From: a virus
DNA length: 26,906 nucleotides
Direction: 5' to 3' (one strand)
Virus record (IMG/VR): IMGVR_UViG_3300008050_007251
Coordinates: 1-26,906 of that record
Numbering within the stretch: position 1 is the stretch's first letter; each line of letters begins with the position of its first letter. Made by a program: the position numbers and the translations under genes. Below are positions 3,001 through 13,677 of this stretch, one piece after another. The notes beneath the pieces were generated by a model. The model ran no database searches and was not told the origin of the DNA. It saw nothing but the letters and a program-made list of their open reading frames with translations.

Positions 3001-3029
3001 GGGGCCGGGCTGACGTCCAGCCCGGCCCC
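3001..3029 (-). terminator. 12-bp perfect GC hairpin upstream of the tail-spike gene
   Basis: GGGGCCGGGCTG (3001-3012) pairs perfectly with CAGCCCGGCCCC (3018-3029) around a 5-nt loop. It lies between the 70-aa gene and the 786-aa gene. It has no U-run on either strand, so it may be a weak terminator, an RNA-processing or stability element, or both. A near-identical stem occurs at 9026-9055. Confidence 0.55.
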
Positions 3030-5503: not shown

Positions 5504-8500
5504 TCAGTCGGGCGGGGTCCAGGTTTCGCCGCCCTGGGGGTGACTGGCGGCGGGCGGGCGGGCCGCCGGGTCGTGCATGAAGGTGAAGCGCCGCGTGCCC
5601 TTGTTCGTCGTCTCGACGTGGACCTGGAAGCCAGCGGCCTCGATGAAGTCCAGGCCGTCGAGGATCCGCCGCTCCAGCTGACCCGCGCGCAGGTCGGTCG
5701 AGATGGAGCGCGGGGCGTTCATCTCCTTGCCTGCCGTCCGCACCAGCCGGGCGAGGTGGGACGCGCGCATCGGGCCGAGGATCGCCTTGCCCGTGCCGTC
5801 CGCGACGTACCTGTCATCGAGCCCCCGCGTCTCGCCGGAGTAGGTGTCGACCTCGGCGACGCTCGCCCCGTAGGCGAAGGCGTAGCGCAGGGCCGAGACG
5901 CTCAACTCCTCCGCGAGCAGAGACTCCAGCGCGGCGTCGCCGATCCCCAGGAACGCCTTGCACCAAAGGTCGTCGACGACGACGAGGGCGTCGGCCTGCT
6001 GGGGCTCGGGGAGCCCGGCGACCCAGGCGAGGTACATGATCCGTAGGTAGGCCGACAGCCGCCCGATCTTCGTGCTGCCGAAGAGCTGCTCGATCTGGGT
6101 GCCGATGCCCTCGCCGTAGTCCGCGTCGAGGGCCAGGGCTTCGGAGCAGCGCCGGGCTGATTCCGACCAGAATGCGTCACGGCAGGCGAGCAGCGCCCGC
6201 ATCAGCGCCGACTCGGCTGAAGGGGAGTCGGCGACGCGGTGCTTCTCGTCAGCGTGCAGGATCAGCATGCGGCTCGCCAGCTCGCTGCGCCCGTCGTGGA
6301 TCGGCTCGATGCCGTTCATCAGGAGCGCCCCGCTCACCCGCTCGATGACCGTGCCCGTGTCGCTACTGCCCTTGCGCTTCTCCCGCGCCCCCAGGTGGGT
6401 GGCCTGCAGGAGCGTGCCCTCCATCGTCGGGGTGACGTCCCGCGTCTCTCGGTTGTCGTCGAGGGTCAGCATCTGGGTGGACAGCCTGCTGATCAGGGCG
6501 GCGGCGGTGGGGACCGAGGAGGACTTGCGCCCGTTGGCGAGGATGCTGACGGCGTCGACCGTCCGCGTCTTGCCCGACGAGCTGCCGCCCTCGATGCGCA
6601 GGATGGGGATGGTCCCGATGCGCCGAAGGACGGGGAGGCAGGCGAGCCAGTGGACGAGGATCAGCCGATCCTCCGTGCCGATCGAGGTCCAGCGGAAGCA
6701 GTCGAGCGCGCGAGCGATGCCGCCGTCCCGCTCGACGTACTCGAAGGGCTGGAAGTCCTCGCCCGCGACGGCGGGGACCTTGGCCTCGGACATGCGGGTC
6801 CGCTCGACCTTGCCCGGCGAGATACGGAGGAGCCTGCCCATGCGGTCGCCCGTCGGGAAGAAGACCGAGCCGTCCCGCTCGACGAAGCTCCAAGCGACGT
6901 CCTGTACTTCGCGGGCGTCGAGCCCCAGGAAGTAGACGACGGCGGCGAGGTAGGCGCGGTGGCTGGCCTTCTTCGCGGTGAGCCCCGACGCCAGCCAGAC
7001 CAGCTTCGTGAAGGCTGGGGTGTGGTGGTCGAGCCCGACGGCCACGCGCTGGCTGCCTCGGACGAGGTAGAGGTCGTCGGCTGTCTGGAAGGCCGTGAAG
7101 CCCATCGACCGCTTGATCGCTTGGCTGACGAAGTCCCCGATCTGCTCCTCGGGGAGCTTGTTCTCGACGGCGTTCATGACCGCGAGCCGCGTGCTGCTGT
7201 AGTGGTCGTGGTCGCTCTGCTCCTTCTCGACCGGGGCGGGCGCAGCGGCTTGGCCTGGGCGTGACGGGGGCGGCGCGAGCGGCGCGGGCTGCTGGGCCGA
7301 CGGTGTCTCGGGCGGCGGCAGGACCAGGGCCTTGGCGACCTCGTCCTTCGTCGGCTTCCCGATCGCCTCCTCCTCCTTGCGCTTCGGCTTGACCCTGTCG
7401 CGGCGCTCGGCGGCGACGCGCCGGGTGATCTCGACCTTGGTCACCCCCTTGCCCGCGACCTTCGCGATGCGGCCAGCGCACGCCTCGCGGGCGAGACGGT
7501 CCTCGATGTGCGCGACGAGCAGGATGACCTCCGCGAAGACGCCAGCCCGCTCTGCCGGGTCCATCCCCTCGACGATCCGCTTCGCAGCGTCGGCGATCTC
7601 CAGGTCGATGATGTCGACGCCCGCCCGTCGGATGACCTCGATCTTCGCGGGGGCGGCAGCGCCCTCGGCGACGCTCCACTCGGCGGCGTCGATCTTCGAG
7701 TCGTTCACGTTGCGGGCGATCCAGTCGCCCGTCGTCTCGTCGGTGACCGCTGCGGCGATCAGCTTCTTCCTGTCGCGCGGCTCGGCCTGTTCCAGCTCGG
7801 CGAAGGCGTCTTCGCCCAGGAGGTTCAGGACCTCGTCGCGGGCCTGCTGCTGGCTGGGTCCGAGCGGCAGGGTCAGGACCTTGACGGAGAGCCCGCGCTC
7901 CACAAGCTGTTTGCCGACGCGCCGCGCCGCCATGTTGCCGCTGCCGGACAGCTCGTTGTCGAACAGGATCTCGACGCGGGTGATCCCTCGGTCGCGCGCC
8001 TTGCGGACGAAGCGCTCCAGGTCGACCTTGTTGAAGCTGACCGTGACCGGGCTGACGACGGGGACGCCGAGCGAGGACAGCGCGACGGCGTCCGCGATGC
8101 CCTCGGCGATGACGACGACGTCGGTCGTGTCCATGACCGTCTCAAGGTAGAGGTGGTCGTTCGTGATGCGCGGCGAGACGCCGGGCCGCTTCTCGCTGTG
8201 GACCGACAGCTTGTGGTACTTGGGCAGGAAGCCGTCGCCCTCCAGGGGCGGGGTCCAGGGCGTCGAGCGCCCGATCAGGTAGAGCGCCTTGCCATGCTCC
8301 AGGTAGGGGAAGAGGATGCGTCCCTCGAAGCGCGTGCGAAATCGCTTCTGGTCCTGATACCAGCCGAGCCCCGACGCGCGGAAGGCCGAGCGCGCTTCGT
8401 GCCGATCGGCCTCGCCGACGATCGAGGGCAGCAGCGGCGATGGCATGAAGCCGATGCCGTAGCTCGCGACGTCCTCGCGATCGAAGCCCCACTTCTCCTT

Positions 8501-8956
8501 GATCCAGTCGAGGACGTCGGGCCGCTCCAGCAGGTAGTCGTGCGCAGCCATCGCGAACATATGGACGACGTCGAGGCCGGGGTCGCCCGCGCTCTTCGTC
8601 GCGTCGTAGGGCACGCCGAACTGATCGCAGAGCCAGACGATCGCGTCGCGGTGCCCCGTGGTCTGCCCCTTGCCCGATCCCCGACTCGGCGCGCTGCCAC
8701 CCGTGCGGACGTATTCGACGAGGTCGATCATGTCTCCGTAGACTCCGGCGGTCTGGCACGCCTTGCAGTTCCAGCGGCCCGTGTGCAGGTTGATCTGCAG
8801 CGACTCCCCCCCTGCGGAGTCGTGACAGAGCGGGCGGCAGTAGGCTTCGCTGCCGGAGGTGCGGACGACCTCGATCCCGAGGCGGGCGATCAGGTCCTCG
8901 GCGTTGAGGTGGGGGCGGATCTTGTCGTAGACGGAAGCGGTCTGTGGTAGGCTCAT
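5504..8956 (-). CDS. Fused DNA primase-helicase, 1150 aa
   Basis: Likely replicative primase joined to an AAA+-type helicase. Residues 40-67 form a zinc-ribbon-like motif (C40, C44/H45, C64, C67) as at the start of DnaG-type primases. A TOPRIM-like domain follows: VVVIAEGIADAVALSSLG (about 280-297, acidic residue E285) and ILFDNELSGSGN (330-341); the usual second DxD acid is replaced, giving D333-x-E335. A basic, proline-rich linker runs from about 515 to 580. The C-terminal half has Walker A GGSSSGKT at 790-797 and Walker B-like LTLDDN at 830-835. The fusion resembles phage and plasmid primase-helicases of the DUF927/D5 kind, which unwind and prime at the fork. It follows the RecD2-like gene after a structured 166-nt leader; no Shine-Dalgarno is seen before the ATG. 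Confidence 0.88.
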   Translation of the reverse strand: MSLPQTASVYDKIRPHLNAEDLIARLGIEVVRTSGSEAYCRPLCHDSAGGESLQINLHTGRWNCKACQTAGVYGDMIDLVEYVRTGGSAPSRGSGKGQTTGHRDAIVWLCDQFGVPYDATKSAGDPGLDVVHMFAMAAHDYLLERPDVLDWIKEKWGFDREDVASYGIGFMPSPLLPSIVGEADRHEARSAFRASGLGWYQDQKRFRTRFEGRILFPYLEHGKALYLIGRSTPWTPPLEGDGFLPKYHKLSVHSEKRPGVSPRITNDHLYLETVMDTTDVVVIAEGIADAVALSSLGVPVVSPVTVSFNKVDLERFVRKARDRGITRVEILFDNELSGSGNMAARRVGKQLVERGLSVKVLTLPLGPSQQQARDEVLNLLGEDAFAELEQAEPRDRKKLIAAAVTDETTGDWIARNVNDSKIDAAEWSVAEGAAAPAKIEVIRRAGVDIIDLEIADAAKRIVEGMDPAERAGVFAEVILLVAHIEDRLAREACAGRIAKVAGKGVTKVEITRRVAAERRDRVKPKRKEEEAIGKPTKDEVAKALVLPPPETPSAQQPAPLAPPPSRPGQAAAPAPVEKEQSDHDHYSSTRLAVMNAVENKLPEEQIGDFVSQAIKRSMGFTAFQTADDLYLVRGSQRVAVGLDHHTPAFTKLVWLASGLTAKKASHRAYLAAVVYFLGLDAREVQDVAWSFVERDGSVFFPTGDRMGRLLRISPGKVERTRMSEAKVPAVAGEDFQPFEYVERDGGIARALDCFRWTSIGTEDRLILVHWLACLPVLRRIGTIPILRIEGGSSSGKTRTVDAVSILANGRKSSSVPTAAALISRLSTQMLTLDDNRETRDVTPTMEGTLLQATHLGAREKRKGSSDTGTVIERVSGALLMNGIEPIHDGRSELASRMLILHADEKHRVADSPSAESALMRALLACRDAFWSESARRCSEALALDADYGEGIGTQIEQLFGSTKIGRLSAYLRIMYLAWVAGLPEPQQADALVVVDDLWCKAFLGIGDAALESLLAEELSVSALRYAFAYGASVAEVDTYSGETRGLDDRYVADGTGKAILGPMRASHLARLVRTAGKEMNAPRSISTDLRAGQLERRILDGLDFIEAAGFQVHVETTNKGTRRFTFMHDPAARPPAASHPQGGETWTPPD

Positions 8957-9022
8957 TGGTAGGTGATAAGGCGCACCCGCCGATCGAGACTGCGCAGCAG
9001 CGGCGGGTGCAATCTGCTGCGC
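8957..9022 (-). promoter_or_regulatory. Primase leader with two interlocked stems (H-type pseudoknot candidate)
   Basis: Two perfect complementarities interlock: 8992-9000 with 9014-9022 (9 bp) and 8973-8982 with 9001-9010 (10 bp). Read as minus-strand RNA this gives stem 1, a 3-nt loop, stem 2 with no gap between stems, and a 9-nt loop, which is the geometry of a classic H-type pseudoknot. It ends 16 nt before the primase ATG. The two stems could alternatively form as competing hairpins. Likely role is control of primase translation; inferred. Confidence 0.55.
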
Positions 9023-9025
9023 TTT

Positions 9026-9055
9026 GGGGCCGGGCTCTTCAGGGAGCCCGGCCCC
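9026..9055 (-). terminator. 12-bp perfect GC hairpin between recD-like and primase genes
   Basis: GGGGCCGGGCTC (9026-9037) pairs with GAGCCCGGCCCC (9044-9055), with a 6-nt loop. It shares its first eleven pairs with the hairpin at 3001-3029 and differs by a compensated swap at the innermost pair. The T-rich stretch TTCTTTCT lies on the plus-strand side, so as an intrinsic terminator it would work best rightward, yet all neighbouring genes run leftward. Confidence 0.55.
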
Positions 9056-9072: not shown

Positions 9073-9111
9073 CCGCGCGGGACTGAAGGGCTGCCCCCCG
9101 ATCCCGCGCGG
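9073..9111 (-). terminator. 10-bp hairpin directly after the recD-like stop codon
   Basis: CCGCGCGGGA (9073-9082) pairs with TCCCGCGCGG (9102-9111), a perfect 10-bp stem with a 19-nt loop, starting 11 nt past the stop codon of the helicase gene. No U-run; probable transcript end or stability element. Confidence 0.45.
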
Positions 9112-9122
9112 GCTCCTTCAGA

Positions 9123-11399
9123 TCAGCGCTCGGCTCTTGTGTTGCAGGGCTCGACGGCCACAACCCCTTGTGCCTCGAAGCTCCAGCCCGCTGCGGCGAA
9201 GGCTCCGAGGGTCTGCCGCTTCTCGCTCCGCTGGGCCTTGGCGAAGTTTGCCATCCCCATGCGATCGCCGACGATGGCGAGCGACTCGGCGGCGCGGCTC
9301 GCCCCGGTGTAGAGCAGGTTGCGGTCGTGCATGATCCAATGCTTCGCCGAGGCGACCATGACGACCAGCGGCCATTCCGATCCCTGGCTCTTGTGGATCG
9401 TCATGGCGTAGGCGACCTCGATGTGCTTGCGCTTGCCCGACGGGACCAGGACCTCGGTCCCGTCCTCGGTGCGGATCTTCATCGCGCCCCCCTTCGGGAG
9501 CCCGATGACCATCGCCTGGGTGCCGTTCATCAGCCCCAGCTCGTAGTCGTTCTGGGTCCAGATGATGCGGTCGCCCATCAGCGGCTTCGGGCTGCGTCCG
9601 TCGGGCGTGGCCTCGGGGGGCGGGTTGCCCAGCAGCCGCTGGCGCAGGCGCTGCAGCTCGACGTTCAGCGCCCAGACGCCGCACGGTCCCTTGCGCATCG
9701 GGGCGAGGACCTGGATGTCCCAGGCGAAGTCGAGGACCCGACCGAAGGGCTCCAGCGGGTGGGGGCTGGTGACCAGCGACTCGACGAGCGCGGCGATCAG
9801 GCCGGGCGTGCCAGCTTCGTGGCCGGGCTCGGTGCGCTCGATGCCCCAGACCGCCGACGACTCGGGGCTGATGACGCCGTCGAGGATCGAGGTCGTGTTG
9901 AGCGCGAGCGTGCCCGCCTGTCGGACGACTTGGGTGAGGACGTTGACCGCTGCGGGGTAGCGCGCCTTCGACGCCAGGAGGTCGCGGAGGATCGCGCCTG
10001 CGCCGACACTGGGGATCTGGTTGTGGTCGCCGACCAGGAGCAGGCGGCAGCCTGCGGGGAGGGCGGCGAGGAGGCTGTGCATCAGCTTGATGTCGACCAT
10101 GCTGACCTCGTCGATGACGACGAGGTCGAACTCGACGGGGTTGTTCCGTCCGCGCGTGAAGCCGAAGCCGCCGTTCATGTCGGGCTGGGGTTCGAGCAGG
10201 CGGTGGATCGTCTTCGCCGTGCGCTGCGTGGCGCTCTCCAGCTTCCGGGCGGCCTTGCCCGTCGGCGCGGCGAGGGCGACGCGGAGCCCGCTCTCCTCGG
10301 CGATCTCGCAGATGGCGTTCATCGTGTAGGTCTTGCCGACGCCAGCGCCGCCTGACAGGACGCTGACGCGCCGCGAGGCGAAGCCCTGGACCGCCGACGC
10401 CTGCCCGGTGTTCAGCGTCGTGAGCGCCGCCGTGGCGCGGGCTCCGGCGAAGCTGACGGGGCGGCGGGCGTTGTCGTCGCCCATGCCTTCGAGCAGCTGG
10501 TCGAAGACCTCGGCCTCCTTCGTCGCGAGGTGCAGGTCCGCGAGGAAGGGCGTGCCGTCGGGGGTCTCGCCCTCGACGATCAGGCCCGTCGCGATCATGT
10601 CCTCGATCGACTCGCCGATCAGGTCCTCGGCGTCGAGCGTGTCGGGGCGCAGCTCCTGGTTGGCCTCGGCGGTCAGCGCCTCCTTGGTCGTCCAGGTCGA
10701 GCCGTTGTCCGCGATGCGGTCGAGGCAGAAGCCGATGCCTGCGGTGAGCCGGATCGGCGCGGTGCTGCTGATCCCCATCTTCTGGGCGATGGCGTCGACC
10801 GTGCGGAAGCCGAAGCGCTCGACCTTGCCGATCAGGGCGTAGGGGTTGGCGCGGACGATGGCGACCGCGCCCTCGCCGAAGCGCTTGAGGATCTTCGTGC
10901 CCTGGGCTGACGTCCAGCCCTGATCGGTGAGCTGGGCGAGGGCGTCGAAGTGCCCCTTGCGCTCGGCCCAGATCCGCGAGGCCGAGGTGACGATCTCGAT
11001 GTCGACGCAGGCGCGGTCGGCGATCTCCTTCGGGTAGGCGATCAGCGCCGATGCGACCTCGCCGTCGTCGCTGATCATCAGGGCTTGCTCGACGATCTTC
11101 TTCGCGCGGGCCGGGCCGATGCCCTTGAAGGCTTCGTTACTGGCGAGCAGGTGGATGAGGGCTTCGGGGCTCTCGTCGATCTGGACGACGCCGCTGGCCG
11201 CCTCGAACTGCTTGCCGAACTTCGGGTGCATGCCCCACTTGCCAGCCAGCTCGACGGAGTCGCCGACGTTCGCGGCGACGGCCCCGGCGAAGCCGAAGGT
11301 TCCGCCCTTGGCGAGCTTGATCTTGCCAGCCATCCAGGGGCTGTCGGGGTTCAGGAAATGGACGACGGCGACGGTGCCGCTGATGGTCTCGGTCTGCAT
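9123..11399 (-). CDS. recD2-like: RecD2-like SF1B DNA helicase, 758 aa
   Basis: All main superfamily 1B motifs are visible: Walker A GGAGVGKT at 350-357, APTGKAA near 378-384 (motif Ia), VVIDEVSMVD at 427-436 (motif II), LVGDHNQIPSVGAG from 455 (motif III), AYAMTIHKSQGSEW (motif V) and LLYTGASRAAESLAIVGD (motif VI). The N-terminal 350 residues include an OB-like start and helix-hairpin-helix stretches (FKGIGPARAKKIVEQ at 91-105), as in RecD2/TraA helicases that move 5' to 3'. It probably acts in replication or recombination beside the primase and nuclease genes. AAAGGA precedes the ATG. A putative promoter lies at 11463-11491, inside the gap after the ERCC4 gene. Confidence 0.93.
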   Translation of the reverse strand: MQTETISGTVAVVHFLNPDSPWMAGKIKLAKGGTFGFAGAVAANVGDSVELAGKWGMHPKFGKQFEAASGVVQIDESPEALIHLLASNEAFKGIGPARAKKIVEQALMISDDGEVASALIAYPKEIADRACVDIEIVTSASRIWAERKGHFDALAQLTDQGWTSAQGTKILKRFGEGAVAIVRANPYALIGKVERFGFRTVDAIAQKMGISSTAPIRLTAGIGFCLDRIADNGSTWTTKEALTAEANQELRPDTLDAEDLIGESIEDMIATGLIVEGETPDGTPFLADLHLATKEAEVFDQLLEGMGDDNARRPVSFAGARATAALTTLNTGQASAVQGFASRRVSVLSGGAGVGKTYTMNAICEIAEESGLRVALAAPTGKAARKLESATQRTAKTIHRLLEPQPDMNGGFGFTRGRNNPVEFDLVVIDEVSMVDIKLMHSLLAALPAGCRLLLVGDHNQIPSVGAGAILRDLLASKARYPAAVNVLTQVVRQAGTLALNTTSILDGVISPESSAVWGIERTEPGHEAGTPGLIAALVESLVTSPHPLEPFGRVLDFAWDIQVLAPMRKGPCGVWALNVELQRLRQRLLGNPPPEATPDGRSPKPLMGDRIIWTQNDYELGLMNGTQAMVIGLPKGGAMKIRTEDGTEVLVPSGKRKHIEVAYAMTIHKSQGSEWPLVVMVASAKHWIMHDRNLLYTGASRAAESLAIVGDRMGMANFAKAQRSEKRQTLGAFAAAGWSFEAQGVVAVEPCNTRAER

Positions 11400-12008: not shown

Positions 12009-12686
12009 CTAGAAGGGCGGGACCATGTCGGACGCGGGGACGTCCGTGCCCCCGGCGGGCGCGTCGCCGACCGCGTCGCTCGCGGGGTCGCCCTTCCAGG
12101 GCATCTCCTCGCTCTGCGGGTGCGGCTGCGGCGCGGCCTGCGGCTGCGGCGAAGCGCCGCCCGGTGCCGGAGCACCAGCCGCGAGGGCGCGGGTCTGCCC
12201 CTGGAAGCGCGCGCTCAACTTGGAGAGCAGCCCCGTGTCGGCGGGCTTGAAGCCGCCGCGCGCGGCGGGCTCGTCGGCGTTCGGGTTGACCCAGTCCGCG
12301 CGGTAGCGCGTGCCGTACTGCTCCGAGTGTTCGGCCTTGACATCGAGCAGGACGACGACCTTCGGCACGGGGCCGCTGATCTTGTCCCAGTCCCCGTCCC
12401 AGAGCCCCGCCTTGCCGAGCGCGTCGATCGCGGCGGTGTTCAGGGTGCCGTCCTTCTTGACGACCCAGGCGCGGTGGGTGGTGAAGTACCCGGCGGGCCA
12501 CGCCTCGCCCCAGCCCGCCTCGCGGCCTCCCCACTCGACCATGATGCCGAACTGGAAGGCGATGGCGACCGCGCCGGAGGCGGCCTCCTCGACGGTCCAG
12601 GTGAGGGGGAATCCCCGGTAGGTGCCCTCGCGGTCGAGCTGGCTCTGGAGGTAGTCTTCGATGGTCAGGTTGCTTTGGTTCTGCAT
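12009..12686 (-). CDS. Putative single-stranded-DNA-binding protein, 225 aa
   Basis: Residues 20-115 form a compact domain rich in beta-prone and aromatic residues (YRGFPLTWTVEE, AIAFQFGIMVEWGG, KVVVLLDVKAEH). From about residue 160 the chain is a flexible A, P, G and Q-rich linker, and it ends in an acidic tail finishing SDMVPPF. That layout, a core plus disordered linker plus acidic tip ending in PF, is the one used by bacterial SSB and phage gp2.5-like proteins to recruit partner enzymes. The position between a RecA-fold ATPase gene and an ERCC4 nuclease gene fits a recombination role. The OB fold is not proven from sequence. The leader has no Shine-Dalgarno and carries CACACCAGAAACG. Confidence 0.6.
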   Translation of the reverse strand: MQNQSNLTIEDYLQSQLDREGTYRGFPLTWTVEEAASGAVAIAFQFGIMVEWGGREAGWGEAWPAGYFTTHRAWVVKKDGTLNTAAIDALGKAGLWDGDWDKISGPVPKVVVLLDVKAEHSEQYGTRYRADWVNPNADEPAARGGFKPADTGLLSKLSARFQGQTRALAAGAPAPGGASPQPQAAPQPHPQSEEMPWKGDPASDAVGDAPAGGTDVPASDMVPPF

Positions 12687-13623: not shown

Positions 13624-13656
13624 GCGTGCCCGCGTGGTCGACCGAGCCGGGCACGC
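13624..13656 (-). terminator. 9-bp hairpin between the zinc protein and ATPase genes
   Basis: GCGTGCCCG (13624-13632) pairs with CGGGCACGC (13648-13656), loop 15 nt. It sits 22 nt after the stop of the 174-aa gene on the minus strand. No U-run; an attenuating or stabilising role is inferred. Confidence 0.4.
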
Positions 13657-13677
13657 TGCCCGACTCGGTGGTCGTGG

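Follow-up and report, generated by a model that had tools for sequence, protein, structure and literature searches.

A predicted H-type pseudoknot in the leader of a phage primase gene and candidates of the same design in other phages

The leader of a phage DNA primase(-helicase) gene holds two perfect helices that interlock as a compact H-type pseudoknot and stop 16 nt before the start codon. The gene lies in a viral contig of 26,906 nt (IMG/VR record IMGVR_UViG_3300008050_007251), analysed over its full length and hereafter named the window. The pairing is non-random, its geometry is that of a groove-crossing knot, and the same shape and placement recur in other phages with unrelated stem sequences. 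On this basis we propose, with about even confidence, a cis-acting role: placed at the upstream border of the region where ribosomes bind to the primase mRNA, the knot would limit or insulate translation of the downstream gene.

Architecture of the knot and its gene context

Both helices lie on the minus strand, read from 9022 to 8973, and consist only of Watson-Crick pairs, 9 bp in S1 and 10 bp in S2. From 5′ to 3′ on the primase strand, the order is GCGCAGCAG-ATT-GCACCCGCCG-CTGCTGCGC-AGTCTCGAT-CGGCGGGTGC, with an L1 loop of 3 nt, a junction of 0 bases and an L3 loop of 9 nt (Table 1). The initial annotation had described interlocked perfect stems of 9 and 10 bp with no intervening bases, which is exact at 8973-9022. 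It had also assigned the 3-nt and 9-nt loops to the deep and shallow grooves, in that order, and A-form distances allow both crossings. The P-P distance is 25 Å across 10 bp of deep groove, a taut but feasible span for the 3-nt loop, and 37 Å across 9 bp of shallow groove, spanned by the 9-nt loop. On the opposite strand, a 3-nt loop must cross about 40 Å, so the full knot fits the primase mRNA strand only; a version with trimmed stems is conceivable there. The predicted primase-leader fold has the interlocked stems and groove-crossing loops that define the H-type class. Extending S2 to 11 bp through a U-G pair was rejected because it leaves a 2-nt loop, too short for the groove. A frameshifting role was discarded as well, since the knot lies outside both reading frames.

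Table 1 Features of the primase leader and clean knots of the leader scan (coordinates are those of the window unless a contig is named)
Feature	Position	Strand	Evidence or remark
DNA primase(-helicase) gene, 1150 aa, knot in its leader	5504..8956	-	PHROG 47 DNA primase, E 1.6e-45
Open segment GCCTTATCACCTACCA, putative ribosome-landing site, 16 nt, without Shine-Dalgarno	8957..8972	-	sequence
S2 3′ arm CGGCGGGTGC	8973..8982	-	sequence
L3 AGUCUCGAU, 9 nt, crosses shallow groove of S1	8983..8991	-	sequence, groove geometry
S1 3′ arm CTGCTGCGC, 0 junction bases to S2	8992..9000	-	sequence
S2 5′ arm GCACCCGCCG	9001..9010	-	sequence
L1 AUU, 3 nt, crosses deep groove of S2	9011..9013	-	sequence, groove geometry
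S1 5′ arm GCGCAGCAG	9014..9022	-	sequence
Perfect 12-bp hairpin GGGGCCGGGCTC/GAGCCCGGCCCC, directly upstream of the knot	9026..9055	-	U-rich tail on + strand only
Second long hairpin of the RecD2-primase spacer	9073..9111	-	sequence
RecD2-like helicase gene, upstream, same direction	9123..11399	-	Pfam HHH_RecD2, AAA_30, UvrD_C_2
Window primase knot	8973-9022	-	16 nt before start
G001 knot	L047 18240-18286	sense	20 nt before start
G008 knot 1	L094 9055-9114, upstream of 9131	sense	16 nt before start
G008 knot 2	L094 upstream of 15241	sense	10 nt before start

The knot occupies part of the 166-nt spacer between the RecD2-like helicase and primase genes, which also holds two more strong hairpins. 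The primase ATG at 8956, 16 nt from the 3′ end of the knot, is the conserved start, the beginning MSLP/MSVP being common to the relatives. The distance and the lack of a Shine-Dalgarno sequence are as the initial annotation gave them, but the latter is unremarkable: a Shine-Dalgarno is present in 4 of the 22 called genes of the window, and the primase start is among those without. Most gene starts of the window are of this kind, with a short C/A-rich unstructured stretch just before them.

Two further structures of the window were recorded. A spacer hairpin at 3001-3029, GGGGCCGGGCT/AGCCCGGCCCC, has the same arms as the hairpin at 9026-9055 and a different loop, and no U tract was found on the gene strand after either of them. 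A second candidate knot lies at 13624-13669 on the minus strand, in the spacer upstream of a Sak4-like gene (S1 9, L1 4, S2 7, junction 0, L3 10); it ties with a 13-bp hairpin.

Chance formation and fold energy

The primase-leader knot is the sole interlocked pair of the window with both stems of at least 7 bp and short loops. Among 120 dinucleotide-shuffled whole windows, none contained a pair totalling at least 19 bp; the maximum was 18 bp, and eight shuffles had 16-18 bp. Nulls that preserve the local hairpins gave the same picture. When S1 was kept and the loop and tail bases were shuffled, an equally good S2 appeared in 0 of 5000 cases. With one hairpin (S1 or S2) and the neighbouring hairpins held, 0-1 of 1500 shuffles matched the advantage of the knot over the nested fold. 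The small chance probability claimed at the outset is borne out by these nulls.

The stacking energy of the leader is -46.7 for the knot; shuffles average -23.6 (sd 4.2). With the knot energy estimated as stacks plus an assumed penalty of 9 kcal/mol, the knot gains 14.3 kcal/mol over the segment's nested fold, the highest advantage among all the spacer or coding regions tested. Across 275 kb of relatives, no sense-strand coding site reaches a knot advantage of 8 kcal/mol. S1 and S2 use different bases and can form together, and the knot is far stronger than either hairpin by itself. Having no bases in common, the stems are unlikely to act as the switch between two competing hairpins that had been suggested.

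Occurrence of the design in other phages

Nine other IMG/VR contigs carry the primase, mostly with the same RecD2-primase order, and in those with a readable leader the protein is 54-61% identical to that of the window. The knot is not conserved in the primase leaders of these relatives. L002, L012 and L014 have hardly any leader, in L005 a further gene is inserted, and the leaders of L003, L007 and L013 contain hairpins and no knot. In L017, a hairpin is followed by a possible knot (S1 6, L1 6, S2 10, junction 0, L3 17) that ends 13 nt before the ATG and has the S2 core CCCGCCG/GGCGGG in common with the window knot, with a nested fold that is as good or better. Since the relatives' leaders differ greatly and lack a clean knot, the primase-leader knot is lineage-specific. 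An exact-sequence search for the knot arms in viral contigs returned unrelated chance matches only, and no primase relatives were found in cellular genomes or in the phage collection. The spacer after the primase in G003 (L053 12826-12892) consists of long alternating G and C runs that give many spurious knots; it is either an assembly error or real sequence.

Leaders of the relatives' contigs and of the window, with genes called by self-trained codon models, were scanned for clean knots, defined as those with an advantage of 8 kcal/mol or more over the nested fold. The 188 leaders yielded four, each on the sense strand and ending 10-20 nt before a start codon (Table 1). Shuffling predicts 0.05 per set, to be compared with the four observed, or three without the discovery case. 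The one antisense match is the mirror of the discovery knot. The knot at L094 9055-9114 (S1 15, L1 2, S2 8, junction 0, L3 12) precedes a 243-aa gene with no assigned function, and its S1-kept null gave 0 of 5000. Eight unrelated high-GC phages yielded one weak match in 173 leaders, 63 nt from the start.

The recurring design can be described as S1 of 8-15 bp, L1 of 2-4 nt, S2 of 6-10 bp, a junction of 0-1 and L3 of 6-12 nt, on the sense strand, with 10-20 nt between the 3′ end and a start codon. The window knot agrees with this descriptor in strand, junction, loops and start distance. A scan of spacers with the strict descriptor returned six sense and no antisense candidates where 0.13 were expected. 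Four of the six tie with plain hairpins. The descriptors were refined during the search, so all p-values given here are indicative. Looser scans of all spacers, with a margin over the nested fold below about 6 kcal/mol, gave sense and antisense candidates alike, with no sense excess. This weakens the case for a broad enrichment of knots across all spacers, and the excess remains only for strong knots adjoining start codons. Matches in phiC31 and TG1 were set aside, being palindromic ACTCACGTGAGT repeats and not knots. In these two phages, terminator hairpins (L081 14755-15478, L090 12608-12755) carry ACTCACGTGAGT palindromes repeated just downstream, which are probably DNA operators.

The G001 knot is positioned between the tail-tube gene and the next gene. 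The homologous spacer of G008, with a tube protein 53% and a next protein 32% identical to those of G001, contains a knot with quite different stems. Cultured phages carry such knots at the tail-tube spacer too. In the Roseobacter phages RDJL6, RDJL Phi 1 and RDJL Phi 2, S2 is GUCGGG/CCCGAC, and in the Nipunavirus phages PAJD-1 and DoCa3 it is AUGGUGC/GCACCAU, with one junction base. The 3′ ends lie 20 (G001), 10 (G008), 13 (RDJL) and 11 nt (Nipunavirus) before the start. Given the first helix, an equivalent second helix arose per 5000 shuffles in 2 cases for G001, 9 for G008, 19-27 for RDJL and 9 for PAJD-1. Between RDJL6 and RDJL Phi 1, a U-A pair of S1 is replaced by G-C, which preserves the pairing, and S2 is unchanged. 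The RDJL, PAJD-1 and G001 leaders have a Shine-Dalgarno-like stretch downstream of the knot. Besides G001, a knot was found at this spacer in 3 of the 12 lineages tested; the other nine show either a terminator-like hairpin, a spacer free of knots, or hardly any spacer at all. In RDJL (L101 1883-1938, L103 1886-1942), (C)CCCGAC occurs downstream in two tandem copies, and the knot loop is able to pair with one or the other, which gives two alternative second helices.

In these tail-tube spacers, both stem sequences are replaced and shape and placement are kept, as selection for the fold would give. The RDJL, Nipunavirus, G001 and G008 knots share architecture, orientation and start distance with the primase-leader knot, but they precede different genes and have unrelated stem sequences. 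The likeness between the primase-leader and tail-spacer knots is architectural only.

Possible roles at the primase start

In the cell, the S1 hairpin would form first, during synthesis of the mRNA. Its loop could then pair with the segment 9 nt downstream, giving a stiff coaxial rod of 19 bp that would end 16 nt before the start codon and leave the short unstructured landing segment open. Such a rod would most likely uncouple primase translation from that of RecD2 and lower or set its rate. It may do so by blocking re-initiating or sliding ribosomal subunits and by setting the rate of fresh initiation. We favour a role in translation initiation because the 3′ end of the knot sits just upstream of the landing site and some of the other knots are followed by a Shine-Dalgarno-like stretch. 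We infer that the knot folds in the cell and affects expression, and in which direction. A regulatory site had already been suspected here: a cis role at the ribosome-binding region gains from the knots of the same design at the same distance from their starts, whereas the analogy with the T4 gp32 leader that came with the suggestion is not established.

The main rival is a role at the transcript end, unlikely in our estimate yet the best placed of the alternatives. The knot, with the adjacent hairpins, would slow the polymerase or block 3′ exonucleases, which would terminate or protect the RecD2 mRNA and reduce the amount of primase mRNA. The two additional strong hairpins of the primase spacer are consistent with this, as are the terminator-like hairpins that occupy the homologous tail-tube spacers when the knot is missing, with an annotated terminator in TehO. 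These siphophage hairpins (tail tube/chaperone spacer of TehO, KL1 and R6L) resemble the knots in their intercistronic position and their similar long first hairpin, and knot-free spacers of this kind suggest a shared "step-down" role between neighbouring genes. Unlike the knots, however, the hairpins of TehO, KL1 and R6L are followed by a U-rich tail and lack a helix between loop and tail. An intrinsic terminator needs a GC hairpin and, directly behind it on the transcribed strand, a U tract; neither the knot nor the hairpin 9026-9055 has one: on the primase strand, S1 is followed by AGUCUCGAU, S2 by GCCUUAUC and the hairpin by AAAGCGCA. Nor would a transcript-end element be expected to keep a constant distance of 10-20 nt to the start codon.

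H-type leader knots are known singly, in T4 gene 32 (PMC535899, PMC3014915) and in tisB (PMC7708055). In T4, T2 and RB69, the leader knot of gene 32, which itself encodes the SSB, is 67 nt upstream, and the more than 40 nt of open RNA that follow carry UUAAA repeats spanning the ribosome-binding site (PMC535899, PMC3014915). Like it (PMC3014915), the primase-leader knot, as predicted here, is a compact H-type structure of two coaxially stacked stems and lies in the leader of a phage mRNA, ahead of a replication gene. This shared fold class raises the idea of a translational operator, on which a phage replication protein, for example an upstream SSB or the primase, would cover the start site as gp32 does. 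A candidate for such a protein exists. An unannotated 225-aa protein encoded at 12009-12686 of the window (minus strand), between Sak4 and an ERCC4-type nuclease, is kept in all relatives; it has an OB-like structural model with a Mycobacterium SSB as top structural match (E 9e-4), a Pro-rich tail and a conserved C-terminal PF tip. These features make it a likely divergent phage SSB. Control in trans by this protein is possible, because its gene lies 3 kb upstream of the knot in the same gene block. We nevertheless regard the operator as improbable. In the window, only 16 nt of open RNA separate knot and start, as opposed to more than 40, and UUAAA repeats are absent; the gene is not that of the SSB but of the primase, and would be the binder's own only if the primase were the one to bind; and relatives' primase leaders show no conservation, with the weak L017 candidate only. 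In addition, knots of this design stand before tail genes, for which control by an SSB would be hard to explain.

We consider it equally improbable that the knot has no function at the RNA level, and is either a chance overlap of two inverted repeats in a spacer rich in structure and in GC, or a DNA-level site (an operator, an origin, or an antisense transcript with a plus-strand terminator). The spacers of these phages are rich in hairpins, at 0.86 per kb, a density similar to that of other high-GC phages. The hairpin at 9026-9055 has its U-rich tail on the plus strand, and the knot is absent from the relatives' primase leaders. Against this stand the hairpin-keeping nulls (0/5000 and 0-1/1500) and the same architecture and placement in other phages. 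Rfam gives this reading no help either, with no match in the window at the curated gathering score and none at the knot-bearing loci L047, L094, L103 and L110; the best weak match of the window is SorY on the plus strand, at 24.5 bits against a cut-off of 111.

Least probable of all is a standby or docking site, at which ribosomal protein S1 would bind the knot and bring the 30S to a start without Shine-Dalgarno: S1 protein does bind H-type knots, tisB standby translation needs one (PMC7708055) and the primase start is of the right kind, but most window genes without Shine-Dalgarno have no knot, and knots also precede starts with a Shine-Dalgarno-like sequence. The tisB knot of E. coli lies far upstream of a sequestered ribosome-binding site and has a 5-bp second stem (PMC7708055). 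The primase-leader knot resembles tisB and other S1-binding knots in being an H-type knot in an mRNA leader, theirs influencing ribosome loading, and differs from tisB in its 10-bp second stem and in adjoining an open start region.

Beyond the primase leader, we put forward a little more tentatively than the cis role itself that these knots form a recurring class of siphophage intercistronic pseudoknots, conserved in shape and placement and not in sequence, 10-20 nt before the starts of selected genes (tail assembly, primase and others). They would act as sequence-free dampers of translation and could replace terminator hairpins. A search of the open-access literature, whose coverage is incomplete, turned up no account of knots of this kind in the spacers concerned, and the class would be an undescribed one. 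If the design is real, leader pseudoknots would be a broader tool of phages than the singly known cases indicate, and one that ordinary covariation searches miss, as the stems are exchanged entirely and only the shape persists. Its presence in the cultured phages RDJL Phi 1, RDJL Phi 2, RDJL6, PAJD-1 and DoCa3 makes it directly testable.
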